DNA of 46,284 nucleotides from Spirochaetaceae bacterium (GTDB taxonomy: Bacteria > Spirochaetota > Spirochaetia > Treponematales > Breznakiellaceae), in assembly GCA_031282145.1 (NCBI GenBank), contig JAITEG010000127.1, positions 1 through 46,284 on the forward strand. Direction: 5' to 3'. A model generated the notes under the pieces. It was not told the DNA's origin, ran no database searches, and saw nothing but the letters and a program-made list of their open reading frames with translations. This document shows positions 13,649-41,400 of the stretch, one piece after another; positions within the stretch are counted from its first letter, which is position 1; each line of letters opens with the position of its first letter. The translations under genes and the position numbers were made by a program.

Positions 13649-13774
13649 AACAAAAAAGCCAGGCTTAACGCAAGGGTATGGGTGGCGAATAAGTGAAAAG
13701 TTAGGAGTTAGAAGTGAGGATCGGGTGCCTGGTACCGCTTGTCAACCTACCGGGTAAAACGTTACAGTAATTAT

Positions 13775-16543
13775 ATGTTAGAAAATATTATTAAAATCCT
13801 GTTCGGTTCGAAGCACGAGCGGGATCTTAAGGCCCTGCTGCCCATCCTGCACGCGATCAATGAAAAGGAAGCCTGGGCGGCAGCCTTGAGCGGGGAAGAA
13901 TACCCCCGGATGACCGCCCGCTTCCGGGACCGGTACCAGGCGGGAGAAACCCTGGATGCCCTGCTCCCCGAGGCGTTTGCCCTGGCCCGGGAAGCAGCCC
14001 GCCGGAATCTGGGGGAGCGGCCCTACGATGTACAAGTCCTGGGGTCCATTGTACTCCACCAGGGTAAGATTGTGGAAATGAAAACCGGAGAAGGTAAAAC
14101 CCTGATGAGCGTTGCCGCGGCCTACCTTAACGCCCTGCCCGGCAAGGGCGTTCATATCGTGACCGTCAACGATTATCTCGCGGAACGGGATACCGACTGG
14201 ATGCGGCCGGTTTTTACCTATTTGGGATTAACCGTGGGTACCATCCTTTCAGACATGGACAATGAGCGGAGAAAACAGAATTACCGTTGCGATATAACCT
14301 ATGGAACCAATAACGAATTTGGCTTTGATTATTTACGGGATAATATGCGCTGGGACCTCGACGGCCGGGTTCAGCGGGGGCATGCCTTTTGTGTGGTGGA
14401 TGAAATCGACTCCATCCTTATCGACGAGGCCCGGACACCCCTCATCATCTCCGGCGCCGCCGAAGACGATACCTTTAAGTATGCCGAGGTGGATAGACTT
14501 TTAGGTTCCCTGGAGGAAGTGAAAAAGAAAGAGGACGGCGAATACCCCGATGAGGCCCAGGGGGAGGAGGTTGTCGGGGACTATAAGATCAACGAGAAGA
14601 ACAAGGGTGTTTCCTTCAGCAACCAGGGGCTGGCGAAAATAGAGGATATCCTCCATAAGCGGAACCTCATCAAAGGGGCCATCGTGGATGAGGAAAACTT
14701 CGAGTACCTCCACTATTTTACCCAGGCCCTGCGAGCCCACAAGCTCTTTGCTATCGATGTGGATTATGTGGTTCAGGACGGACAGGTTCAGATAGTGGAT
14801 GAATTTACCGGCCGGATCCTCTATGGCCGGAGGTATTCCGACGGGCTCCACCAGGCCATTGAGGCAAAGGAGCGGATCAAAATCGCCCAGCGGAACCGGA
14901 CCATGGCAACCATTACGTTTCAGAACTACTTCCGGCTTTATGAAAAAATTTCCGGCATGACTGGTACCGCCGACACCGAGGCGGTGGAATTCAGCAAGAT
15001 CTACAACCTGGACGTGGTGGTGATCCCCACGAACCTCCCCGTGGCGCGGAATGACGAGGACGACGTGGTATATCTCAATGAGGGGGATAAATTGAGCGCC
15101 CTCTGCGATGAAATCGCCGAAGCCCACCGCCGGGGCCAGCCCATGCTGGTGGGGACCGTTTCCATTGAAAAGTCGGAGAAGATCTCCACCCTCCTTACCC
15201 GGCGGGGGGTGCGCCACGAGGTGCTCAACGCCAAAAACCACGCCCGGGAAGCGGGGATCATCGCCGAAGCCGGGGCCAAAGGGGCGGTTACCATTGCCAC
15301 CAACATGGCGGGCCGGGGTACGGACATAAAGCTCGGGGGCAACCCGGAACACCGAGCCCGAAAAGCCGCGGGTACCGGGGCAAGCCCGGAACAATACGCC
15401 GAAGTCCTCAAGTCGGAATATGAAAAGTGGAAAAAGGACTACGGGGAAGTGAAATCCCTGGGCGGACTCTATGTTATCGGGACTGAACGGCATGAAAGCC
15501 GGCGTATCGATAACCAGCTTCGGGGCCGTTCCGGCCGGCAGGGGGATCCGGGAAGATCAAAATTCTTTATTTCCATGGACGATGACCTGATGCGGCTTTT
15601 CGGCGGCTCCAATATTAAGGGTCTCATGTCCAAAATCGGTATGGAGCCGGGGGAACCTATCTATCATCCCTGGCTCAACAAGAGCATCGAAAAAGCCCAA
15701 AAAAAGGTGGAGGAACGGAACTTTGAAATCCGCAAACACCTCCTGGAATACGACGACGTCCTTAATCAGCAGCGAAAGTATATTTATGAACAACGGGACG
15801 CCATACTGCGGGATAACCATCTCAAAGACCGGGTAAACGACGCTACCCTTTCCATGGTAAAGGGCGCCCTGGAAACCTACCGACCCCGAGCGCGGGGGGA
15901 CGAGGCCGTTTTCGTTAAGGAACTGGGCAATTATCTCAAGGAAAAATTTGGCTACCCCCTCAAGGTTGAGGGAAAGGAGCTATCCAACCTGGAGGCCCTG
16001 GAAGGAGAGATCATCGGGGAATTGGAAAAAGACCTGGATGAAAAGGAAAACCTGGTGGGAGCCGTTAATTTAAACGCCTTTATCCGGATGCAGTACCTTC
16101 AGGCCATAGATCGCAAATGGTTGGATCACCTGGAAAATATGGAAGGCCTGCGGGAGGCGGTATACCTCCGCAGCTACGGGCAAAAGAATCCTTTGACGGA
16201 GTATAAAATAGAGGGATTTCAGATCTTCGATACCATGATCGATATGATCCGGGAGGAAATAGCCTCCCGGGTGCATTTGGTACGGATCCAGGCGGCGGGA
16301 GACCGGGAATGGCGGGGCAGACCCACGGCAACGGTCCAATCCCACGGAAGCTTTGCGGCCTTTGGAAGCTCTGCGGCCTTTTCCTCAGGAAAGGGACAGG
16401 GGGGCGGAGGAACCCCTCCGGGTCCTTCGGCAAAATCCCAGCCTGAGGCCGCCACCGTGGTCAGGGCTTACCCCAAGGTAGGAAGAAACGACCCTTGTCC
16501 CTGCGGCAGCGGGAAAAAGTACAAATTCTGCCACGGGAAATGA
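13775..16543 (+). CDS. secA: Preprotein translocase ATPase SecA
   Basis: Motor ATPase that drives proteins through SecYEG. From ATG 13775 it is 922 aa; the N-terminus [18 protein letters not shown] is typical, which is why this ATG is preferred to the in-frame TTG at 13739. No good Shine-Dalgarno precedes it. Walker A MKTGEGKT lies at residues 102-109, [15 protein letters not shown] is the DEAD-type Walker B region, and the C-terminal metal-binding tail [19 protein letters not shown] closes the protein. The linker before that tail carries an 18-base tandem duplication (16346-16381). It is convergent with the SPOR gene, 10 bases apart. Confidence 0.97.
16346..16381 (+). repeat. 18-bp tandem duplication in the SecA linker
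   Basis: Two copies of an 18-base unit (16346-16363 and 16364-16381) differing by one base; in frame, giving two similar Ser/Ala/Phe/Gly hexapeptides in the flexible C-terminal linker. Confidence 0.7.
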
Positions 16544-25205: not shown

Positions 25206-26588
25206 TCAAAGGGCGCATGGCTTTCCCCCTTTAAGGCATTTACCGGCGAGAACCCCGGGGACTCGTTTTTCGTTTTCGATGGAAAGTACGCCATTAACAA
25301 AGACATGCTTTACGCCATCGGGCGGCGCGTCGGGGTTTCCCAAGCCGGGAAAATCAGCCCGTTCATGCAGGCGATCCCAATCGAGAATAACCAGGTCCGC
25401 ATCGCCCTCCGGCGCAATGCGGCCCTTGCCGCCACAGCCCATAGCCCGGGCGGGGATCGTAGTACAGCGCCGCAGGGCCTCGTGTAATGAAAACTGCCGC
25501 CGTTCCTTTACCATCACCCGGAAAAACAGGGGATAGGTCGCCGCGCCCTGAGGATGGCCCTGGCCCGGAGGATTTCCTATGCAATCGGTGGACACCATCA
25601 CATCCTTGAGGGAGTAGGCGGTAAAAACATCTTCCGGGTGGCCGGGATCGTAAATCAAACTGTCGCCGGGAAAATCGCGGCGTATTTCGCGGAACTTCTC
25701 TAGATCGATAAACCGGCCCGCGTACTTCCCCGTGGCGGCGCGGAGGCGGTCAAAATGAAAATCCCCGCCATAAGTGATATTTTGTTCGTCAAAGACGGCG
25801 CTGTCGGCGCCGGTGGCAAAGGCGGTATACATACCGCTGTCCACCCAGACATCAGCGCCTTTGGCGCGGCAGCGGTCTATGATCTCCATTGCCTTCCTGA
25901 GGGGGTCTCCGACAAACATATACACCAGATGGGAGATGATGACCCGGACACCGAATTTCATCCCCATCTCCAGGATATACGCCAATGAATCGGTATCGCC
26001 GGGATAGCGCGAGCCTACATGGACGGTAATAAGCCTCCCTGCGCCGGAAGCAATTAACGCCATTTCTTTCAATTCTTCTTCCGACGCCCCCGGCGTATAT
26101 TCAATGCCAAAAGAAATGCCCCAGGCTCCCCGATCAAGGGCTTTTCCCGCAAGTTCCTTCATCACCTCTCTCTGGGCCGCCGACGCGCATTGGTAAACAT
26201 TCTCCTGCCCGGCTTCTTCCCTTAGCGAACTCAGACCCGTCATCTCCGCCTGATTCACCGGGTAACCAGACTCTTCAAATTCGCCAAAAAACGTGTCGAA
26301 ATCCACGGCCCCCCTGCCGCAGTTTCCACTTAAAACCGTAGTAACCCCCATAGCCAAAAGTTTTTCAGCACATGGAATATCATTGTCGCTGTGAGCGTGA
26401 ACATCAATAAAGCCGGGAACCAGGATTCCGCCTTCCGCATCAAGTTTCTGCAAGGCCCTTTCTTTTGCCCCTTCTTCCGGGGAATAGAGCCCTGCGATTT
26501 TTCCACCCGAGATTCCCAGGCTGCCCATAAAATCTCGGCCACTTTCAGGATCGATGATGCGCGCGTTTGTAACAAGATAATCCAGCAT
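25206..26588 (-). CDS. Amidohydrolase of the N-acyl-D-amino-acid deacylase type
   Basis: 460 aa from ATG 26588 (the start MLDYLVTNARIID is typical; a longer frame to 26657 has no better ribosome site). Metal ligands of the amidohydrolase fold are visible as VDVHAHSDND; GNCG, characteristic of the D-aminoacylase subgroup, and further His/Asp motifs (ISHL, VSTDC) follow. The reaction is probably hydrolysis of an N-acyl-D-amino acid or related cyclic amide, but the substrate is not known. Arginine is often CGC here while the neighbours favour CGG, hinting at a different origin. It faces the molybdenum hydroxylase operon; a functional link is unproven. Confidence 0.8.
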   Translation of the reverse strand: MLDYLVTNARIIDPESGRDFMGSLGISGGKIAGLYSPEEGAKERALQKLDAEGGILVPGFIDVHAHSDNDIPCAEKLLAMGVTTVLSGNCGRGAVDFDTFFGEFEESGYPVNQAEMTGLSSLREEAGQENVYQCASAAQREVMKELAGKALDRGAWGISFGIEYTPGASEEELKEMALIASGAGRLITVHVGSRYPGDTDSLAYILEMGMKFGVRVIISHLVYMFVGDPLRKAMEIIDRCRAKGADVWVDSGMYTAFATGADSAVFDEQNITYGGDFHFDRLRAATGKYAGRFIDLEKFREIRRDFPGDSLIYDPGHPEDVFTAYSLKDVMVSTDCIGNPPGQGHPQGAATYPLFFRVMVKERRQFSLHEALRRCTTIPARAMGCGGKGRIAPEGDADLVILDWDRLHERADFPGLGNPDAPPDGVKHVFVNGVLSIENEKRVPGVLAGKCLKGGKPCAL

Positions 26589-26903
26589 GGTTGCATTATC
26601 ACTCTTTATACTCCCTTTCTCAAGCCCTGTTTTTTGATACATTTCACCACTAACCATTTACGCTATCACATAGCTCTGTATCGTCAAAGGCGGTCCCATG
26701 ATGCCTTACTCGTTCTTCTTTTGTAAAGAGAGGTTTTACCGGCAGGTGAGAACTGTTGCATTACCAATACGGGTTATTTTGACACGCATTTTAAGGTTTG
26801 TTTGACAATTTCACCGCGTGTCGCCAACGGCGGAACGTATGCGCAGTGTGCCTTTTTGCCATATCAGTCTTAATCTGTTTTCTTCATATTACTTTAGTAA
26901 ATT

Positions 26904-26978: not shown

Positions 26979-28079
26979 ATGATGCGAGAACATTATTTTA
27001 CTTTTGGCAAATTTGTATCCCAGGTTCACTTACAAAAAGAACTGCCCCGGGCGGATGATATCTTTCAGGATAACCGGGCATCCCGGTCCATCCTGATAAG
27101 TGATATCCATACCGAAGCTATCGCCCGCAGCATAGGGCAAAATTATGATATTCCCCATTGTGTGCTGCCCGGAGGGGAAGCCGCTAAGGGGTGGCCCGCG
27201 GTGGAGCGGATCCTGGCCGCGGCAAAAGCGGGGGGGCTCGGCAGGGACGGTCTTTTTATTGCCGTAGGGGGAGGGGTCGTCAGTGATCTCGCCGCCTTTG
27301 CCGCCTCTATTTATATGCGGGGTTGCAAGCTCTGTATCGTTTCCACCACCTTGTTGGGCATGGTGGACGCCGCCCTGGGAGGAAAAACAGGGTTTGACCT
27401 CTTTGGGATAAAAAATCTTGCGGGTACCTTTTATCCCGCCGGGCATATTTACCTGTCATTGGATGCCCTGACCACCCTTCCACGGCGGGAATGGAAATCT
27501 GGCATGGCGGAATTGATTAAGACCGCCCTGCTGGAGGACGGGGGGGAGATGGAAGAAAGGCTTAAAGTTCTCGGACCGGCCTTCGAGGCGGGGGATCTTT
27601 TACTGGGGCATGACGGGGCGCTTTTTGAGCTTGTTTCCGCTTCGGTAAGACTTAAGGGCCGGATTGTCGAGGCGGATCCCGAGGAGTCCGGGACGGAACG
27701 GGCGCTGCTCAATTTGGGCCATACCTTTGCCCACGCCCTGGAATCGTCCGCCGGGTTTGGGACGCTGTCCCATGGGGAAGCGGTGGCCTGGGGGCTTGTC
27801 CGTTCCGGCGAATTAGGTCATCATATGGGTATTACCCCCCTGGAACGGGCCAGGGAAATCAAAGACCTGGTCCTTTCATTTGGGTACGAAATCGCCACCC
27901 CCCATCCAAAAATGGGGGACTGGGACGTTTTTTTACAGGCCCTGCGGGGTGATAAAAAACAATGGGCCGGGAAATTGCGGTTTGTAATTCCAACCGCCCA
28001 CGGTGCCCAAGTTGTACAGGACGATTTAATTGAAGAGCGTTTGTTATACCCCCTCATTAATGGAGAATATATGCTATGA
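26979..28079 (+). CDS. aroB: 3-Dehydroquinate synthase
   Basis: Second step of the shikimate pathway: converts DAHP to 3-dehydroquinate, with NAD+ and a metal. 366 aa. NAD-binding GGGVVSDLAAFAASIYMRG, the TTLLGMVDAALGGKTG segment and the metal-ligand groups AELIK, GHTFAHALE and LSHGEAVAWG are present. No ribosome-binding site is seen; the promoter lies so close that the leader should be only about ten bases. The next gene starts on its stop codon (ATGA), which is odd for an outer-membrane protein. Confidence 0.95.
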   Translation: MMREHYFTFGKFVSQVHLQKELPRADDIFQDNRASRSILISDIHTEAIARSIGQNYDIPHCVLPGGEAAKGWPAVERILAAAKAGGLGRDGLFIAVGGGVVSDLAAFAASIYMRGCKLCIVSTTLLGMVDAALGGKTGFDLFGIKNLAGTFYPAGHIYLSLDALTTLPRREWKSGMAELIKTALLEDGGEMEERLKVLGPAFEAGDLLLGHDGALFELVSASVRLKGRIVEADPEESGTERALLNLGHTFAHALESSAGFGTLSHGEAVAWGLVRSGELGHHMGITPLERAREIKDLVLSFGYEIATPHPKMGDWDVFLQALRGDKKQWAGKLRFVIPTAHGAQVVQDDLIEERLLYPLINGEYML

Positions 28080-35420: not shown

Positions 35421-35453
35421 GGTCCTTTTACCCAGACCCAGAGGAAAAGGACC
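35421..35453. terminator. Hairpin between miaA and the V-ATPase D gene
   Basis: GGTCCTTTT (35421-35429) and AAAAGGACC (35445-35453) pair perfectly over nine bases around a 15-base loop. Probable end signal for the rpoZ-miaA transcript, although the T-run is part of the stem. Confidence 0.5.
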
Positions 35454-35485
35454 GTTCCAGGACGGACGTAATGCCTCGCAGAGGC

Positions 35486-36472
35486 TCATTTCATGAAAAA
35501 AGATTCCAGAGCCCGCCGGATCTGTCCCAGGGGATCATCGGCGGCGGAAATCCAGGTAAGTCCCGGGAGGGAGGCGAAATAGGTAAACTGCCGTTTGGCG
35601 TAGCGGCGGCTGTTCCGGGCGATGAGGGCTTCCACCCCGCCGAGATCGCCGGAGAGGGCGTATTCCCCGGGACGGGGTTCAACGAAAAATTCCTGGTAAC
35701 CGATGGCGGAAAGTCCGGGATCGCCGGGGCCGTAACCGGCTTTGAGGAGCTTTTCCACCTCGCCGGGCAGCCCGTTACGGAACATGGCGGCGCATCGTTG
35801 GTCGATCCGGCGGTAAAGTTCTTCCCGGGGACGGGTAAGGCCCAGGATGAGGAAACGGTAACGGGACCGGGGAGAAGCCGGAGAGGGGAGCGCAAAGGAA
35901 CTCAAGGGCCGGCCGGAGCTTCGGAACACCTCCAGGGCCCGGAGGAGCCGGTAGGTGTCGTTGGGGTGGATCCGGGCGGCGCTGGGGGGATCGCGGGCAG
36001 CCAGTTCTTCCATGAGGGCGGGACCCCCCCGCCGGAGAAGTTCTTCCCTGAGGGCTTCCCGGACCGCGGGGTCGGAGGGGGGGGCATCGCTTTGACCCAG
36101 GATGAAATTCCTGATATAAAAACCGGTTCCCCCGGACACCACCGGCAGGGCTCCCCGGCCAGCAATGGCGGCACAGGCTTCATCGGCTAGACGGACAAAA
36201 TCCCCGGCGTTGAACTGTTCATCCGGGTTACGGATGTCGATAAGGTGGTGGGGAATTTTTCCCCGCTCCCCAGGGTCCGGCTTCGCGGTGCCGATGTCCA
36301 TACCCCGGTAGACCTGCATAGAATCGGCGGACACCAGTTCCGCCTCAAAGGGAAGGCCCCGGTCCGGCCCCTCTCCAAAAAGGCGGGTCAAAATCCCGGT
36401 CTTGCCGGACGCGGTGGGACCAAAGAGGACGCATACGGGGACATCAACGGCCCCGGACAGGGGAATTTTCAG
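35486..36472 (-). CDS. miaA: tRNA dimethylallyltransferase with non-ATG start
   Basis: Transfers a dimethylallyl group to A37 of UNN-reading tRNAs. The P-loop GPTASGKT, followed by DSMQVYRGMDIGTAKP, HHLID and SGGTGFYI, is clear. The first ATG (36391) lies after the P-loop, so it cannot be the true start. Upstream in frame there is a TAG (36487-36485, the end of rpoZ) and between them only CTG, ATT and TTG as possible starts; CTG 36472 (CTG AAA ATT CCC) gives the expected ~14 residues before the P-loop. GGGCGG lies just before it. The distance to the rpoZ stop is 12 bases, so translational coupling may help. Confidence 0.88.
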   Translation of the reverse strand: MKIPLSGAVDVPVCVLFGPTASGKTGILTRLFGEGPDRGLPFEAELVSADSMQVYRGMDIGTAKPDPGERGKIPHHLIDIRNPDEQFNAGDFVRLADEACAAIAGRGALPVVSGGTGFYIRNFILGQSDAPPSDPAVREALREELLRRGGPALMEELAARDPPSAARIHPNDTYRLLRALEVFRSSGRPLSSFALPSPASPRSRYRFLILGLTRPREELYRRIDQRCAAMFRNGLPGEVEKLLKAGYGPGDPGLSAIGYQEFFVEPRPGEYALSGDLGGVEALIARNSRRYAKRQFTYFASLPGLTWISAADDPLGQIRRALESFFMK

Positions 36473-36484
36473 GAGCCGCCCGGC

Positions 36485-36676
36485 CTATTCTTCCAGGTGG
36501 AATTCGACTTCCCTGGTAAACACCTGCCGGGCCGCCAGGGAAACGACCTTGCCGTCGTTATCCTCAATATCCGGGTCCTTCAGCATGGAAAGCTGGTAAG
36601 AGCGCCGGGAGGAAGCGGAGGTAATCTCGTACATATTACCATCGTATTCGATAAGTTCTTCCAGAGGAAATATCAT
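36485..36676 (-). CDS. rpoZ: RNA polymerase omega subunit
   Basis: 63 aa from ATG 36676. The sequence IFPLEELIEYDGNMYEIT, then ASSRRSYQL and KVVSLAARQVFT, is the omega/RPB6 fold in its spirochaete form; it helps assemble RNA polymerase. A longer start (36688) exists, but the shorter matches the family and fits a promoter seven bases away (TTTACA 36712-36707, 17 bases, TATGGT 36689-36684), which would give a leaderless mRNA. No Shine-Dalgarno is seen. miaA follows after 12 bases. Confidence 0.85.
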   Translation of the reverse strand: MIFPLEELIEYDGNMYEITSASSRRSYQLSMLKDPDIEDNDGKVVSLAARQVFTREVEFHLEE

Positions 36677-36727
36677 GGAAATAACCATATAAAATATCGG
36701 AAATTATGTAAATACCCCGCATTGCCT

Positions 36728-37732
36728 TTAATCTTTTTCTTTAAGCAGCGCGTCGTTGTTGAGGACCTTGAAGGAAACGGCTTTGGGAGACCGGACATCC
36801 CGCACCACAATGCCTTCTTTATCAAGGCCGCTTGGGTACTTGCCCCGGGCCTTTTCCAGCAGCTCTTCCAGGGTATAGGCAAAAGCCTCCCCCCGCTCTT
36901 CAAGGGGAACAAAGGGGACTCCCAGGGAGGCGCAGATCTCAAGGGCCCTGTCGTAGGGAACATAGCCGCCTGAATCCCAGTCTTTAACGTCGAACACGTA
37001 CCATTCCCGGGAGGAAAGGCGCAGCTTGTTTTTTTGTATGCCCGGCCCGCATATTTCTCCGGTCAGGACGATGTTTTTTCCGTAGGCCGCCAGTTTTTCC
37101 TTAAGGCCGTAGCGGTACACCGGCGACCAGTACAGGGCCTCCGCCTCGTCCTTGATCTCCTTGTTGCGGCTGCAACAGCCGATCTTGCCGTCAATAAAGT
37201 ACACAATCCCCGAGGTGCCGTCCATCTTCGTGGTGATGTAGTAGGGCTTTCCCCGCAGCTCATCAAGCAGTTCCAGGGCGGACTGTATACGTATCTCGTC
37301 GGAGGCGGGAATCCCAAAGGGCCTTTCGCCGATGATGGTTCCGCCTGCCCCTGAGGTTTCGGGGATGTACCATTTTTTTACGCCCAGTTTTCCGGTAACG
37401 TCGTCCCCTTCGGCGGCGTCTGAAAGTTCGGGGAACTGCGCCAGCGGCAGGAAAAGGCCCTGGGAGAGCTGCCCGCGCATCCTGGCCGTGCGTATACGGA
37501 AGCCTTTGCCGTTGTCCTCGTTTTCGCGGTACGAGGAGTTACGCAAAAATTCATAACGCGGGTCCAGGGGCAGGAAACTATCCACCTCAAAATAGACGCC
37601 CAGATCCCCTTCCTGGAATTCGCCTTTCTTGACGACACAGGTCCAGCCCATGATATGGGCCGCCTCAAGAAAATCCGACCCGGGAATGGCCTGTATGCCC
37701 CTGACTCTTTGAATGGTAACTAGCGCACGCAT
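36728..37732 (-). CDS. RNA ligase of the DraRnl (Rnl5) type
   Basis: 334 aa. The nucleotidyltransferase motif KMDGTS is at Lys169 (AMP attachment), with motif III LTGEICGPG, IV DKEGIVVRD and V SFKVLN. Residues 1-~110 form the OB-like domain (WTCVVKKGEFQEGDLGVYFEVDSFLP) of the Deinococcus-type ligases, which seal 3'-OH RNA ends, including RNA in RNA-DNA hybrids. ATG 37732 begins the conserved protein; a longer frame upstream is not used because a consensus promoter ends six bases before this ATG. Arginine codons are mixed (CGT, CGC, AGG), unlike the CGG-rich neighbours, a sign of horizontal arrival. Confidence 0.88.
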   Translation of the reverse strand: MRALVTIQRVRGIQAIPGSDFLEAAHIMGWTCVVKKGEFQEGDLGVYFEVDSFLPLDPRYEFLRNSSYRENEDNGKGFRIRTARMRGQLSQGLFLPLAQFPELSDAAEGDDVTGKLGVKKWYIPETSGAGGTIIGERPFGIPASDEIRIQSALELLDELRGKPYYITTKMDGTSGIVYFIDGKIGCCSRNKEIKDEAEALYWSPVYRYGLKEKLAAYGKNIVLTGEICGPGIQKNKLRLSSREWYVFDVKDWDSGGYVPYDRALEICASLGVPFVPLEERGEAFAYTLEELLEKARGKYPSGLDKEGIVVRDVRSPKAVSFKVLNNDALLKEKD

Positions 37733-37738
37733 AGTATA

Positions 37739-37767
37739 AGTATAGAGGGGGTTTTTTGAAATGTCAA
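37739..37767 (-). promoter_or_regulatory. RNA ligase promoter, near-perfect; leaderless start
   Basis: On the minus strand TTGACA (37767-37762), 17 bases, TATACT (37744-37739). A second TATACT follows directly (37738-37733), then the ATG. Initiation would be at or next to the A of the ATG. Confidence 0.8.
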
Positions 37768-37815: not shown

Positions 37816-38769
37816 TCACTCCTCACTTCCGCCTTCTCCCCAGTCCCCCGCAAAAAGGATCTCCGGCTCCAGGGTAAAGCCCAGGGCGGCCTTGACCCGG
37901 GCGGCCGTTTCTTCCGTCAGGGCGCGGATCTCCGAGGCCCGGGCGTTTCCGGTATTGATGATGATATTGCCATGCCAGGGGGCTATCATGGCGCCGCCTA
38001 TGGCAAGGCCCCGGAGGCCCAGTTCGTCAATGAGCTTCCCCGTGGGTTTTCCGAAGGCCCGGTTGTTTTTGAAGACCGAACCTGCCGAGGGGTAACGGTA
38101 ATGGCCTTTGGCCTCCCGGTCCCGGCGGTGTTCTTCCATTTCCCGGCGGATCTCCGCTTCGGGCCGGGGCGTCAGGGCGAACCGGGCCGAGAAAATCAGG
38201 GCCCGCTGTCCCTGGAAGGGGCTTTTTTTGTAGCCGAAGTCCTCCGGTCTGGCGGGAATCCAGCGCCGGGCCCCGGCTTCGTCGAGGATTTCCGTTTCCT
38301 TGAGGACATCCGATACGGACCTGTCGTAACAGCGGGCGTTCATCCAGACCGCGCCGCCTATGGTTCCGGGCATACCGGCGAGGAACTCAAGGCCCCCCAG
38401 TCCCGCGGCGGCGGCGGCCTCCACGGCCTCATCCACCGGCGTACCGGAACGGACAAGCAGGCCGGAAGCTTCCGCCACCGCGCCCCGCCAGCCGCCAGTA
38501 TCCAGCACGACACCCCGGAGGCCCCGGTCGGAGACCAGGATATTGGCGCCGCCCCCAAGGATAAAGAGGGGAATCCCTTCAGTCCCGGCGGATTCCCGCA
38601 GCAGGGCGGCGTAGGCGGGAAAACCTTCACCTTCGGGGCGGATAAAAAGGTCCGCGGGGCCTCCGGCCCGGAAGGTGGTATGCCGGGACATGGGTTCGTC
38701 ATAGGCAAGGAATCCGGTGAATCCCGTCCGGGAATTGATTTTTTCGATAAACTTCTGTAGGGTAAGCAT
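37816..38769 (-). CDS. murB: UDP-N-acetylenolpyruvoylglucosamine reductase
   Basis: Makes UDP-N-acetylmuramate in cell-wall synthesis; FAD enzyme, 317 aa. FAD-binding segments LGGGANILV and AGMPGTIGGAVWMNA are visible, as is YRYPSAGSVFKN with the catalytic Ser. ATG 38769 (MLTLQKFIEKI) is preferred to a frame start at 38820, which would overlap cysS. Its start and that of cysS lie back to back with one base between them. Promoter inside cysS: see 38784-38812. Confidence 0.95.
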   Translation of the reverse strand: MLTLQKFIEKINSRTGFTGFLAYDEPMSRHTTFRAGGPADLFIRPEGEGFPAYAALLRESAGTEGIPLFILGGGANILVSDRGLRGVVLDTGGWRGAVAEASGLLVRSGTPVDEAVEAAAAAGLGGLEFLAGMPGTIGGAVWMNARCYDRSVSDVLKETEILDEAGARRWIPARPEDFGYKKSPFQGQRALIFSARFALTPRPEAEIRREMEEHRRDREAKGHYRYPSAGSVFKNNRAFGKPTGKLIDELGLRGLAIGGAMIAPWHGNIIINTGNARASEIRALTEETAARVKAALGFTLEPEILFAGDWGEGGSEE

Positions 38770-38770
38770 A

Positions 38771-40213
38771 ATGGCGTTTACTCTATATAATACCCTTGGC
38801 CGGGAATTACAAGCCTTCACGCCGATCGCCGAAGGAAAAGCCGGGTTCTACGGCTGCGGGCCCACGGTGTACGATTACGCCCATATCGGGAATCTCCGGG
38901 CCTATGTGGTCCACGACATCCTGGCCCGTTCCCTGCGCTGCGCCGGTTTTGAGGTGACCCATGTGATGAACATTACCGATGTGGGGCATCTTTCCGGGGA
39001 TAATGACGAGGGCGACGACAAGATGGTAAAAAGCGCCGGAGCGCGGGGAAAAAGCGTCCTTGAGATCGCCAATTTTTATACCCAGGCTTTTTTTCAGGAT
39101 ACGTCCCGGCTCAACATCCAAAGGCCGGACATTGTATGCAAGGCCACGGAGCATATACCGGATATGATCGGCCTGATCCGGCGGATTGAGGAACGGGGCT
39201 TTACCTATTCCGCCGGGGGGAACCTCTATTTCGACACGTCCCGGTTTCCCTCCTACGGGGAACTGGCCCTGCTCCGGCTTGAGGACCTGAAGCATGGCGC
39301 CCGGGTTGAGGTGGACGGAAACAAGCGGAACCTCACCGATTTTGTCCTCTGGTTCACCAAAAGCAAATTTGAAAACCAGGCCCTGACCTGGGACAGTCCC
39401 TGGGGCCGGGGCTATCCGGGCTGGCATATTGAATGTTCCGCCATGAGCATTAAGTACCTGGGGGAGCAGTTTGATATTCACGCCGGGGGAATCGACCATA
39501 TTCCCATCCACCATACCAACGAAATCGCCCAGAGCGAGGCCGCCACGGGGAAAAAGCCCTGGGTCCGCTATTGGCTTCATAATGAATTTTTGATTCTCGA
39601 CAAAAATAAAATGTCCAAATCCTCAGGGAGCTTTTTTACCCTGCAAAACCTTATAGACTCCGGCTACGAACCCCTGGATTACCGGTATTTCCTCCTGGGG
39701 GCCCATTACCGGAGTCAGCTTCAGTTTTCCTGGGACAGCCTCGGGGGGGCGAAAAACGCCCGGAAGACCCTGCTGGACCGGGTAAAGACGCTGGCCGGGA
39801 AGGCGGGGGTAGTTCCGGGCCCCGCCGGGGAGTCTCATGAAGCCGGGGCCTATCTGGCGACCTTTAACAAGGCCCTGGAGGAGGATCTTTCCACCCCCCG
39901 GGCACTGGCGGAACTCTGGGGCCTGCTCCGGGACAACAGTATAAAACCCGCCGCCGCCCTGGCAGCGGCCTTCGATATGGACAGGGTTCTGGGCCTGGGC
40001 CTGCGGGAAGCCGCGGCCGCCGCCCTGGACAGAGGGCCGGAAGACGGGGAGCTGGTCCGGGAAATTGAAGGGCTGATAGCCGAACGGGGGGAGGCGAAAA
40101 AGGCAAAGGATTTTGCCCGGGCCGATCATATCCGGGAGGCCCTGAAAAAACGGGGCATTATGCTTGAAGACGGGCCGGCGGGAACGAGCTGGCGGCGTGT
40201 TGAGCCTCTGTAA
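38771..40213 (+). CDS. cysS: Cysteinyl-tRNA synthetase
   Basis: 480 aa. HIGH-type motif HIGN (YDYAHIGNLR), zinc ligands (FYGCGPTVYD; HIECSAMS) and KMSKS in KMSKSSGSFF. Start ATG 38771 (MAFTLYN) fits the family. TTGATT (38735-38740), 17 bases, TAGGGT (38758-38763) lies upstream inside murB, with seven bases to the ATG, so the message may be leaderless. First gene of a tight series that continues with the sigma factor 16 bases later. Confidence 0.96.
   Translation: MAFTLYNTLGRELQAFTPIAEGKAGFYGCGPTVYDYAHIGNLRAYVVHDILARSLRCAGFEVTHVMNITDVGHLSGDNDEGDDKMVKSAGARGKSVLEIANFYTQAFFQDTSRLNIQRPDIVCKATEHIPDMIGLIRRIEERGFTYSAGGNLYFDTSRFPSYGELALLRLEDLKHGARVEVDGNKRNLTDFVLWFTKSKFENQALTWDSPWGRGYPGWHIECSAMSIKYLGEQFDIHAGGIDHIPIHHTNEIAQSEAATGKKPWVRYWLHNEFLILDKNKMSKSSGSFFTLQNLIDSGYEPLDYRYFLLGAHYRSQLQFSWDSLGGAKNARKTLLDRVKTLAGKAGVVPGPAGESHEAGAYLATFNKALEEDLSTPRALAELWGLLRDNSIKPAAALAAAFDMDRVLGLGLREAAAAALDRGPEDGELVREIEGLIAERGEAKKAKDFARADHIREALKKRGIMLEDGPAGTSWRRVEPL
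38784..38812 (-). promoter_or_regulatory. murB promoter inside the cysS coding sequence
   Basis: On the minus strand TTGTAA (38812-38807), 17 bases, TATATA (38789-38784). It lies within cysS codons 5-14; the leader would be about eight bases. Confidence 0.6.
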
Positions 40214-40229
40214 CGGTTGGGGAAAAGCG

Positions 40230-40784
40230 TTGTTTTCAATAACGGATGAGAAAAGGGACCCTGAGGAGTTCCGCAAACTCTACGACACTGTTTTCCCGAT
40301 CCTTTTCAGGGTGGCCTACCGGATCGCCAACAGTGAAGAAGCGGCGGAGGATCTCTGTCAGGAAGCTTTTTCCCGCCTCCATGAAAAAAACATGAGTTTT
40401 CCCAATCCGGAGGAGGCGAAATATTGGCTTATCCGGGTAGTCAAAAACGCGGCGTTAAATTACGCCAAGCGGAAAGACCGGGAACGGAAGGCCTATCAAC
40501 GGGCATTCCGGGAGGATACAAGGCAGGAAGAGACCGGAGAAGGGATTTTTATCAGAAAGGAAATCCAGACTGAAATACAGGAGGCCCTGAAAAAACTTCC
40601 CGGGCATTTACAAATGGTGATAATGTTAAAAGAGTATGGCGAAATGAACTACAAGGAAATCGGCCGGGTCCTGGGCATTAGCGAAGGGAATGTAAAAGTC
40701 CGGGTGTTCAGGGCCCGGGAGCGTTTGGCCAAGCTATTAGAAGCGGAAGACCATTTCCGCAAGGATGGTTCACATGTGTCCTGA
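40230..40784 (+). CDS. ECF-type RNA polymerase sigma factor
   Basis: 184 aa from TTG 40230, chosen because GGGGA lies six bases before it and it begins just after the cysS stop; longer GTG/TTG starts at 40164 and 40197 would overlap cysS. Region 2 (FRVAYRIANSEEAAEDLCQEAFSRLHE) and region 4 (LKEYGEMNYKEIGRVLGISEGNVKVRVFRARERL) are present; the linker is short, as in ECF sigma factors. It is coupled to an anti-sigma factor whose start lies inside its end, so activity is probably controlled at the membrane. Confidence 0.9.
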   Translation: MFSITDEKRDPEEFRKLYDTVFPILFRVAYRIANSEEAAEDLCQEAFSRLHEKNMSFPNPEEAKYWLIRVVKNAALNYAKRKDRERKAYQRAFREDTRQEETGEGIFIRKEIQTEIQEALKKLPGHLQMVIMLKEYGEMNYKEIGRVLGISEGNVKVRVFRARERLAKLLEAEDHFRKDGSHVS

Positions 40785-41400
40785 TCGTCAAATTCTTTCA
40801 CTTTATGCGGACGGAGAATTGCCCTCCCCCTGGAAAGAAAAGCTGGAAAGCCACCTGCCGGTCTGCGCCCGGTGCCGGGAAGAGCTGGAAGCTTACCGGA
40901 AGCTCTCCCGGTTTCTGGCGGGGGCCAAAAACACCGATTCCCTGGAGGCAGCCAAAGAACGGGTCCTCCGTAAACTGCGGAGCCGCGGGGAGGACGCCCT
41001 CCCCCGGAACCTGAGGCTCTGGCAAAAAAATGTGTCCCTCCCCTTCCCGGCGGCCGCGGCGGCCGCGGCGGTCCTGCTGTTTTTCCTGGGGTTCTTTGTG
41101 TTCCGCCAGATTTTTTTGGCCGACCCTGCCCAGGATAAAGTCATGGCCGCGGGGGTAAATCTTGACCTCCAGGGCATTACGCCGGTTTCGGATATAAACG
41201 GGATTCTCCAGTACCTGGGCGACAGGGATACGGGGGATATTGTGATTCTCCGCCTCCCGGAAAGCAGAAACTTCATGAGTTCCGGCGAGCCGAGAATCCT
41301 CAAGGCCGCGGAACTGCCGGCAAAATATTCCCGGACCTTTGCACCGTCCCCGCACCCCGGCCCCGGGGATTATTCCACAGGGAGCGGTTTACCGCGATGA
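40774..41400 (+). CDS. Zinc-finger anti-sigma factor, membrane-anchored
   Basis: 208 aa from ATG 40774 (AAGGATGG is eight bases upstream; an earlier ATG at 40765 is possible). The zinc anti-sigma motif HLPVCARC (His27, Cys31, Cys34) holds the sigma factor in the cytoplasm. One membrane helix lies near residues 90-112 (AAAAVLLFFLGFFVFRQIFL), and the remaining ~95 residues are extracytoplasmic. The next gene starts on its stop codon (ATGA). Confidence 0.85.
   Translation: MCPDRQILSLYADGELPSPWKEKLESHLPVCARCREELEAYRKLSRFLAGAKNTDSLEAAKERVLRKLRSRGEDALPRNLRLWQKNVSLPFPAAAAAAAVLLFFLGFFVFRQIFLADPAQDKVMAAGVNLDLQGITPVSDINGILQYLGDRDTGDIVILRLPESRNFMSSGEPRILKAAELPAKYSRTFAPSPHPGPGDYSTGSGLPR

Follow-up and report, generated by a model that had tools for sequence, protein, structure and literature searches.

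The RNA-ligase gene rnl of a spirochaete contig probably carries a housekeeping-sigma promoter fused to its coding sequence, a layout predicted from the DNA to yield a leaderless mRNA. Genes of this kind appear to form a standing minority class beside genes led by a Shine–Dalgarno (SD) motif in this Treponema family, with single genes switching class over evolution; we place the probability of this reading at about 0.85. Transcription by the housekeeping-sigma RNA polymerase would begin at the A of the rnl start codon, and the mRNA is predicted to have no 5′ leader. The ribosome would then start at the 5′-terminal AUG, probably as a whole 70S particle, by analogy with leaderless genes of other bacteria. 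The original prediction of a leaderless rnl is supported, and each sequence-based test able to refute it came out in its favor: the start codon is conserved, promoter-to-ATG distances peak at 6, the peak is specific to ATG and absent in Escherichia coli, and the layout is kept at rnl, rpoZ, and secA. The stretch of DNA analyzed, hereafter the window, is the whole of contig C77 (46,284 bases) from assembly G000, which comprises 3.04 Mb in 268 contigs and is 91% complete.

The rnl Gene and Its Promoter

The rnl gene (334 codons) occupies positions 36728 to 37732 of the minus strand, with its ATG at 37732-37730. Its product displays a Pfam PHA02142 OB-fold domain (127 bits) and an RNA_ligase domain (PF09414) scoring 100 bits against a gathering cut-off of 27, in agreement with its original designation as an RNA ligase. 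Against the equivalog for DRB0094-type RNA ligases (NCBIfam TIGR02306), it scores 134.3 bits, below the cut-off of 151.15; judged by these profile scores, it is a relative of the DRB0094 RNA ligase outside that equivalog.

The predicted sequence TTGACA-17-TATACT was found letter for letter on the minus strand, with the −35 box TTGACA at 37767-37762 and, after a 17-base spacer, the −10 box TATACT at 37744-37739. Six bases, again reading TATACT (37738-37733, minus strand), separate the −10 box from the ATG. The absence of a ribosome-binding site was likewise borne out, as no SD-like motif is present in the 15 bases before the ATG. The perfect 17-spaced TTGACA/TATACT pair occurs a single time in the window, at rnl, and pairs with up to two mismatches occur six times versus 0.98 expected, a count reached in 0 of 100 shuffles.

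Conservation and Switching at rnl

A different start codon could have overturned the prediction, and orthologs were compared on this point. The comparison covered the window and 51 of 58 orthologous loci, giving 52 rows; the loci left out have an odd start (L031, L057) or are truncated (L060, L063-L066). The protein begins at the same Met in all 52 rows, and an SD-like motif directly precedes that Met in 44 of them. The eight SD-less rows are the window, L009, L010, three loci titled Prevotellaceae, and the two Fibrobacterota loci L053 and L055. L041, one of the three Prevotellaceae-titled loci, shows a weak promoter match at 7 bases.

Two of the SD-less relatives display the same layout as the window: L009, whose protein is 91% identical to the window's, reads TTGACA-17-TATACT-6-ATG, and L010 (88% identical) reads TTGACT-16-TATATT-6-ATG. 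Over the last 40 bases before the ATG, the window matches L009 better than all shuffles (0/500 as good) and L010 better than nearly all (1/500). The preceding 40 bases are unlike, with 493/500 shuffles as good for L009 and 299/500 for L010, and sequence further upstream differs among the three loci. A direct comparison of L009 with L010 over the last 40 bases was not significant (276/500 shuffles as good). In the rnl tree, the window, L009, and L010 fall together with SD-led genes in a single starred set (18 rows), within which the tree gives no order. Because the close relatives L011 (88%) and L012 (87%) carry rnl behind SD leaders, at least one switch between SD-led and leaderless-type initiation, in either direction, is indicated at this gene.

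Relatives of rnl with 70-81% identity were also observed on contigs titled Bacteroidota, Fibrobacterota, Clostridiales, Synergistales, and Coriobacteriales. These other-phylum loci (L031, L038, L039, L041, L045, L047-L049, L053, L055-L058, and L061) reflect either transfer of the gene from one phylum to another or errors in the binning of contigs. The contigs carrying rnl relatives are mostly titled Treponema or Spirochaetaceae and come from metagenome assemblies, which, going by isolate names, we take to be from termite guts.

Promoter-to-ATG Distances across Genomes

Leader lengths were compared across genomes through the distance from a promoter to the start codon. Genes were called with a simple Markov coding model, sigma-70-like promoters (at least 9 of 12 letters) were located relative to in-frame ATG candidates, and the background was averaged over distances 12-60. 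The distance peaks sharply at 6: in the sample from the window's own genome (626,136 bases, 465 genes), 14 promoters lie at distance 6 and 4 at distance 7 versus 1.24 per distance. The relative G033 displays 16 at distance 6 and 6 at distance 7 versus 0.67 (169 genes), and G059 shows a weak, broader peak with 5, 4, and 6 promoters at distances 6, 7, and 8 versus 1.29 (222 genes). No peak was found in G064 (0 of 76 genes) or, by the same procedure, in E. coli K-12, where 0 promoters lie at distance 6 and 1 at distance 7 versus 0.51 (181 genes). For GTG and TTG, no promoter lies at distance 6 in the own-genome and G033 samples, and the peak is also absent for three control codons. This limitation to ATG is what one would expect if transcripts of this class have to begin at their start codon.

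The excess at distances 6-7 amounts to about 15.5 of 465 genes (3.3%) in the window's genome and 20.7 of 169 (12%) in G033, figures that cover strong promoters only and depend on the gene caller used. The suggestion that leaderless genes may be frequent here holds insofar as the predicted class exists beyond rnl; its extent is about 3% of sampled genes in this genome and about 12% in G033. In G033 itself (L127, L188-L207), 22 of the 169 sampled genes have a strong promoter 6-7 bases before the ATG, and 150 exact-pattern matches occur genome-wide, several times the count in the window's genome. With the −35 test switched off (41 pieces), the profile becomes blunter and a second peak of 17 matches appears at distance 0, which falls to 4 matches with the test on.

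A pattern requiring exact TTGACA was followed through 97 genomes, whose families (here f1-f5) carry numbers rather than names, f1 being that of the window. Gaps of 5-8 bases to the ATG outnumber gaps of 13-16 in 58 of 58 f1 genomes (totals 2008 versus 691), and the same holds for 11/12 genomes of f3, 10/13 of f4, 13/13 of f5, and the single f2 genome (1/1). A search of six genomes for small-subunit rRNA retrieved it from G059 only (1/6), with none in G000 or G033.

Conserved Layouts at secA and rpoZ

The secA gene (13775-16543, plus strand; NCBIfam SecA, 1160.5 bits versus a cut-off of 814) is preceded by TTGTCA-18-TACAGT (13739-13768, plus strand), which ends 6 bases before the ATG at 13775; this gene does not figure in the original prediction. 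One search matched secA in 97 genomes, from part of which 40 pieces were taken, G022 and G068 among them; the rows left out were L238 (contig edge), L262, L304, and L306 (no start found), L257 (truncated), and those without a locus except G022 and G068. The layout is present in 28 of 41 readable members of the window's class versus about 1.2 expected. By family, it was found in 15/20 members of f1, 3/9 of f3, 3/3 of f4, and 4/4 of f5, with the small families giving 2/2 in f6 (upstream sequences identical), 1/1 in f8, and 0/2 in f7. Outside the class, 2 of 24 relatives display it versus 1.36 expected, and 16 of the 24 are SD-led. Among the 30 genes with the layout, inside and outside the class, the promoter lies at distance 6 in 20 and at 7 in 7. 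Since the class members with the layout have SecA proteins anywhere between 93% and 64% identical to the window's, the spacing has outlived the sequence between the −10 box and the ATG.

A weaker version of the rnl arrangement with seven bases had been proposed for rpoZ, encoding RNA polymerase omega (36485-36676, minus strand; ATG at 36676), and this proved a strong case: TTTACA-17-TATGGT (36684-36712, minus strand) lies 7 bases before the ATG. The product matches Pfam RNA_pol_Rpb6 with an E value of 2.2e-5 and 24.8 bits, under the cut-off of 26, and its start, MIFPLEEL, is conserved among relatives. In f1, a −35/−10 pair lies 5-8 bases before the ATG in 14 of 17 readable orthologs versus 0.40 expected from shuffles, the remainder being two SD-led genes and one with neither feature. 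Rows L174 and L178 (unreadable) and four matches without a locus were left out. Elsewhere, the layout was found in 2/4 members of f3 and in 0/7 of f2, f4, and f5 combined, all seven of which are SD-led. Because the distances range over 5-8 and are most often 8, the predicted leaders would be 0-2 bases long, not exactly 0.

A further and decidedly tentative proposal is that secA (in the sampled class, one family excepted) and rpoZ (in the window's family) have been leaderless since ancient times and under selection. Output of SecA and omega might then be tied to leaderless translation, for example through the state of the 70S ribosome, rather than to SD-based initiation.

Other Genes of the Window and Its Relatives

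The murB gene (37816-38769, minus strand; NCBIfam murB, 215.5 bits versus a cut-off of 144.5) adjoins rnl upstream on the same strand and is divergent from cysS, with one base between the two start codons (38767-38773). Because a single base separates them, the promoter of each must sit within the other gene. For cysS, the original prediction held a weaker promoter with seven bases, and the letters are indeed present (TTGATT-17-TAGGGT, 38735-38763, plus strand, 7 bases before the ATG at 38771), but the match reaches only 7/12 and lies wholly within murB codons. The same TAGGGT letters precede cysS in G001 and in contig C48, where cysS starts further off behind an SD, and an SD at cysS is absent in C77, G010, and G019, all three. 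Seven cysS upstream rows on the minus strand were used and the others left out. As TAGGGT consists of murB codons, cysS is not accepted as a good leaderless case and counts as a doubtful one.

Leaders of about ten bases had been predicted for aroB and murB. The aroB value agrees with TTGAAA-17-TATAAT located 16 bases before the ATG at 26979. At murB, no site passes the consensus rule, but TTGTAA-17-TATATA, picked out by eye 14 bases upstream of the ATG (38769-38767), is plausible, if weak. An amidohydrolase-like gene displays TTGAGA-17-GATAAT (26595-26623, minus strand) 6 bases before its ATG at 26588.

A gene for a small protein with the motif VIIDGMGGG, whose family we take to be DUF3842 (L089), has a promoter 6 bases before the ATG in the window's own assembly (L089, 3162-3581) and 8 bases before it in G033 (L197, 5331-5762). 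Relatives of this gene are mixed, with a promoter at 5-8 bases in 7 of the 14 readable loci among 17 tried (fragment L283 left out), and the gene was set aside as evidence.

Origin of the Contig

From 27,000 to about 35,434, the window matches the same-genus assembly G001 at 81-89%, and its SecA is 93% identical to that of G001. Right of 35,496, where miaA, rpoZ, rnl, murB, and cysS lie, same-genus DNA matches the window at 80% at best and otherwise at no more than 76% (stretches of at least 300 bases); kinship thus changes abruptly at about 35434-35496. Second copies exist in G000, with rpoZ on C71 and the cysS region on C48, and the C48 CysS is 84-87% identical to the CysS proteins of G001, G003, and G004. 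C77 may be a chimeric contig, a product of mis-binning, or the carrier of an acquired block, and the part with rnl may come from a second Treponema. The conclusions hold for either origin, as the two likely sources are both members of the family with the signal. Positions 40164-41400 encode a member of the sigma-70 family (Pfam regions 2 and 4) and, after it, a protein resembling anti-sigma factors whose score falls short of the NCBIfam cut-off.

Alternative Explanations

Read-through from murB is the most serious competitor, though an unlikely one: rnl would be read mainly from the murB message, its near-ATG box would be minor, and translation would start without an SD inside a long mRNA. The arrangement permits this: murB precedes rnl on the same strand at a distance of about 83 bases, and the scan found no terminator-like site between the two. 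A read-through mRNA would, however, equally be without an SD near the rnl ATG, L009 and L010 share the promoter layout despite their different upstream sequence, and read-through explains neither the distance-6 peak nor secA and rpoZ.

Two other explanations would remove the promoter altogether. That AT-rich upstream DNA merely resembles a promoter beside the ATG is very improbable; matches at the 9/12 level do arise by chance (8.3 expected versus 19 found in 16 kb), but the uniqueness of the perfect 17-spaced pair in the window, the distance peak, its ATG specificity, and conservation all speak against coincidence. Least credible of all is a true rnl start at GTG 37819, overlapping the murB stop, in which case the apparent promoter would encode 29 extra residues. 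The frame is open up to a stop 30 codons upstream and holds one GTG at codon −29, but the orthologs begin at Met, most with the SD-like motif ahead of it. Several of them have in-frame stops 1-10 codons upstream, which leaves the GTG start unsupported, and the N-terminal extension, not being conserved, was rejected. A promoter fused to the rnl coding sequence is the explanation that we retain.

Relation to Known Leaderless Systems

Leptospira belongs to another class of spirochaetes than that of the window. In Leptospira interrogans, also a spirochaete, about 440 mapped leaders are shorter than 10 nt; they were mapped there by RNA sequencing, whereas the leaders here are predicted from sequence, and the main text of that study names neither secA nor rpoZ (PMC5243855). 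In the main text of a survey by Zheng et al. (2011), TANNNT about 12 bases before a start codon without an SD serves as the mark of TA-led leaderless genes, and such genes, averaging 3.9% (range 1.8-6.9), are given for 6 of the 18 Spirochaetes (PMC3160421). The genes described here share the −10 position and the absence of an SD with that group and differ from its account in the proper −35 box, the ATG specificity, the conservation followed gene by gene, and the share near 12% in one relative; that main text mentions neither Treponema nor secA nor Leptospira. In Deinococcus-Thermus, a reporter-tested "-10 region adjacent to ORF" (TANNNT) drives leaderless mRNA at about 30% of ORFs with weak need for a −35 box, unlike the minority class with good −35 boxes found here (PMC12340547).

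A literature search, conducted mostly without subscription journals, retrieved, among the titles listed for leaderless secA and rpoZ, none concerned with spirochaetes, and nothing on leaderless genes in Treponema, the combination of leaderless mRNA and Treponema leading to toxin-antitoxin systems only. Leaderless genes as a kind, including in Spirochaetes, are therefore already known; what would be new, on the sequence evidence, is the conservation at secA and rpoZ together with the switching at rnl.

Implications

Starts of the leaderless type also bear on annotation, as software that depends on SD motifs to pick start codons can place them wrongly. The rnl gene offers a natural comparison: where the protein is 87-91% identical to the window's, some species have an SD leader before the gene and others the leaderless-type layout. 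The secA and rpoZ genes provide a short list of conserved cases testable directly in cultivable spirochaetes. As read from their genomes alone, treponemes would be running a standing class of leaderless genes.
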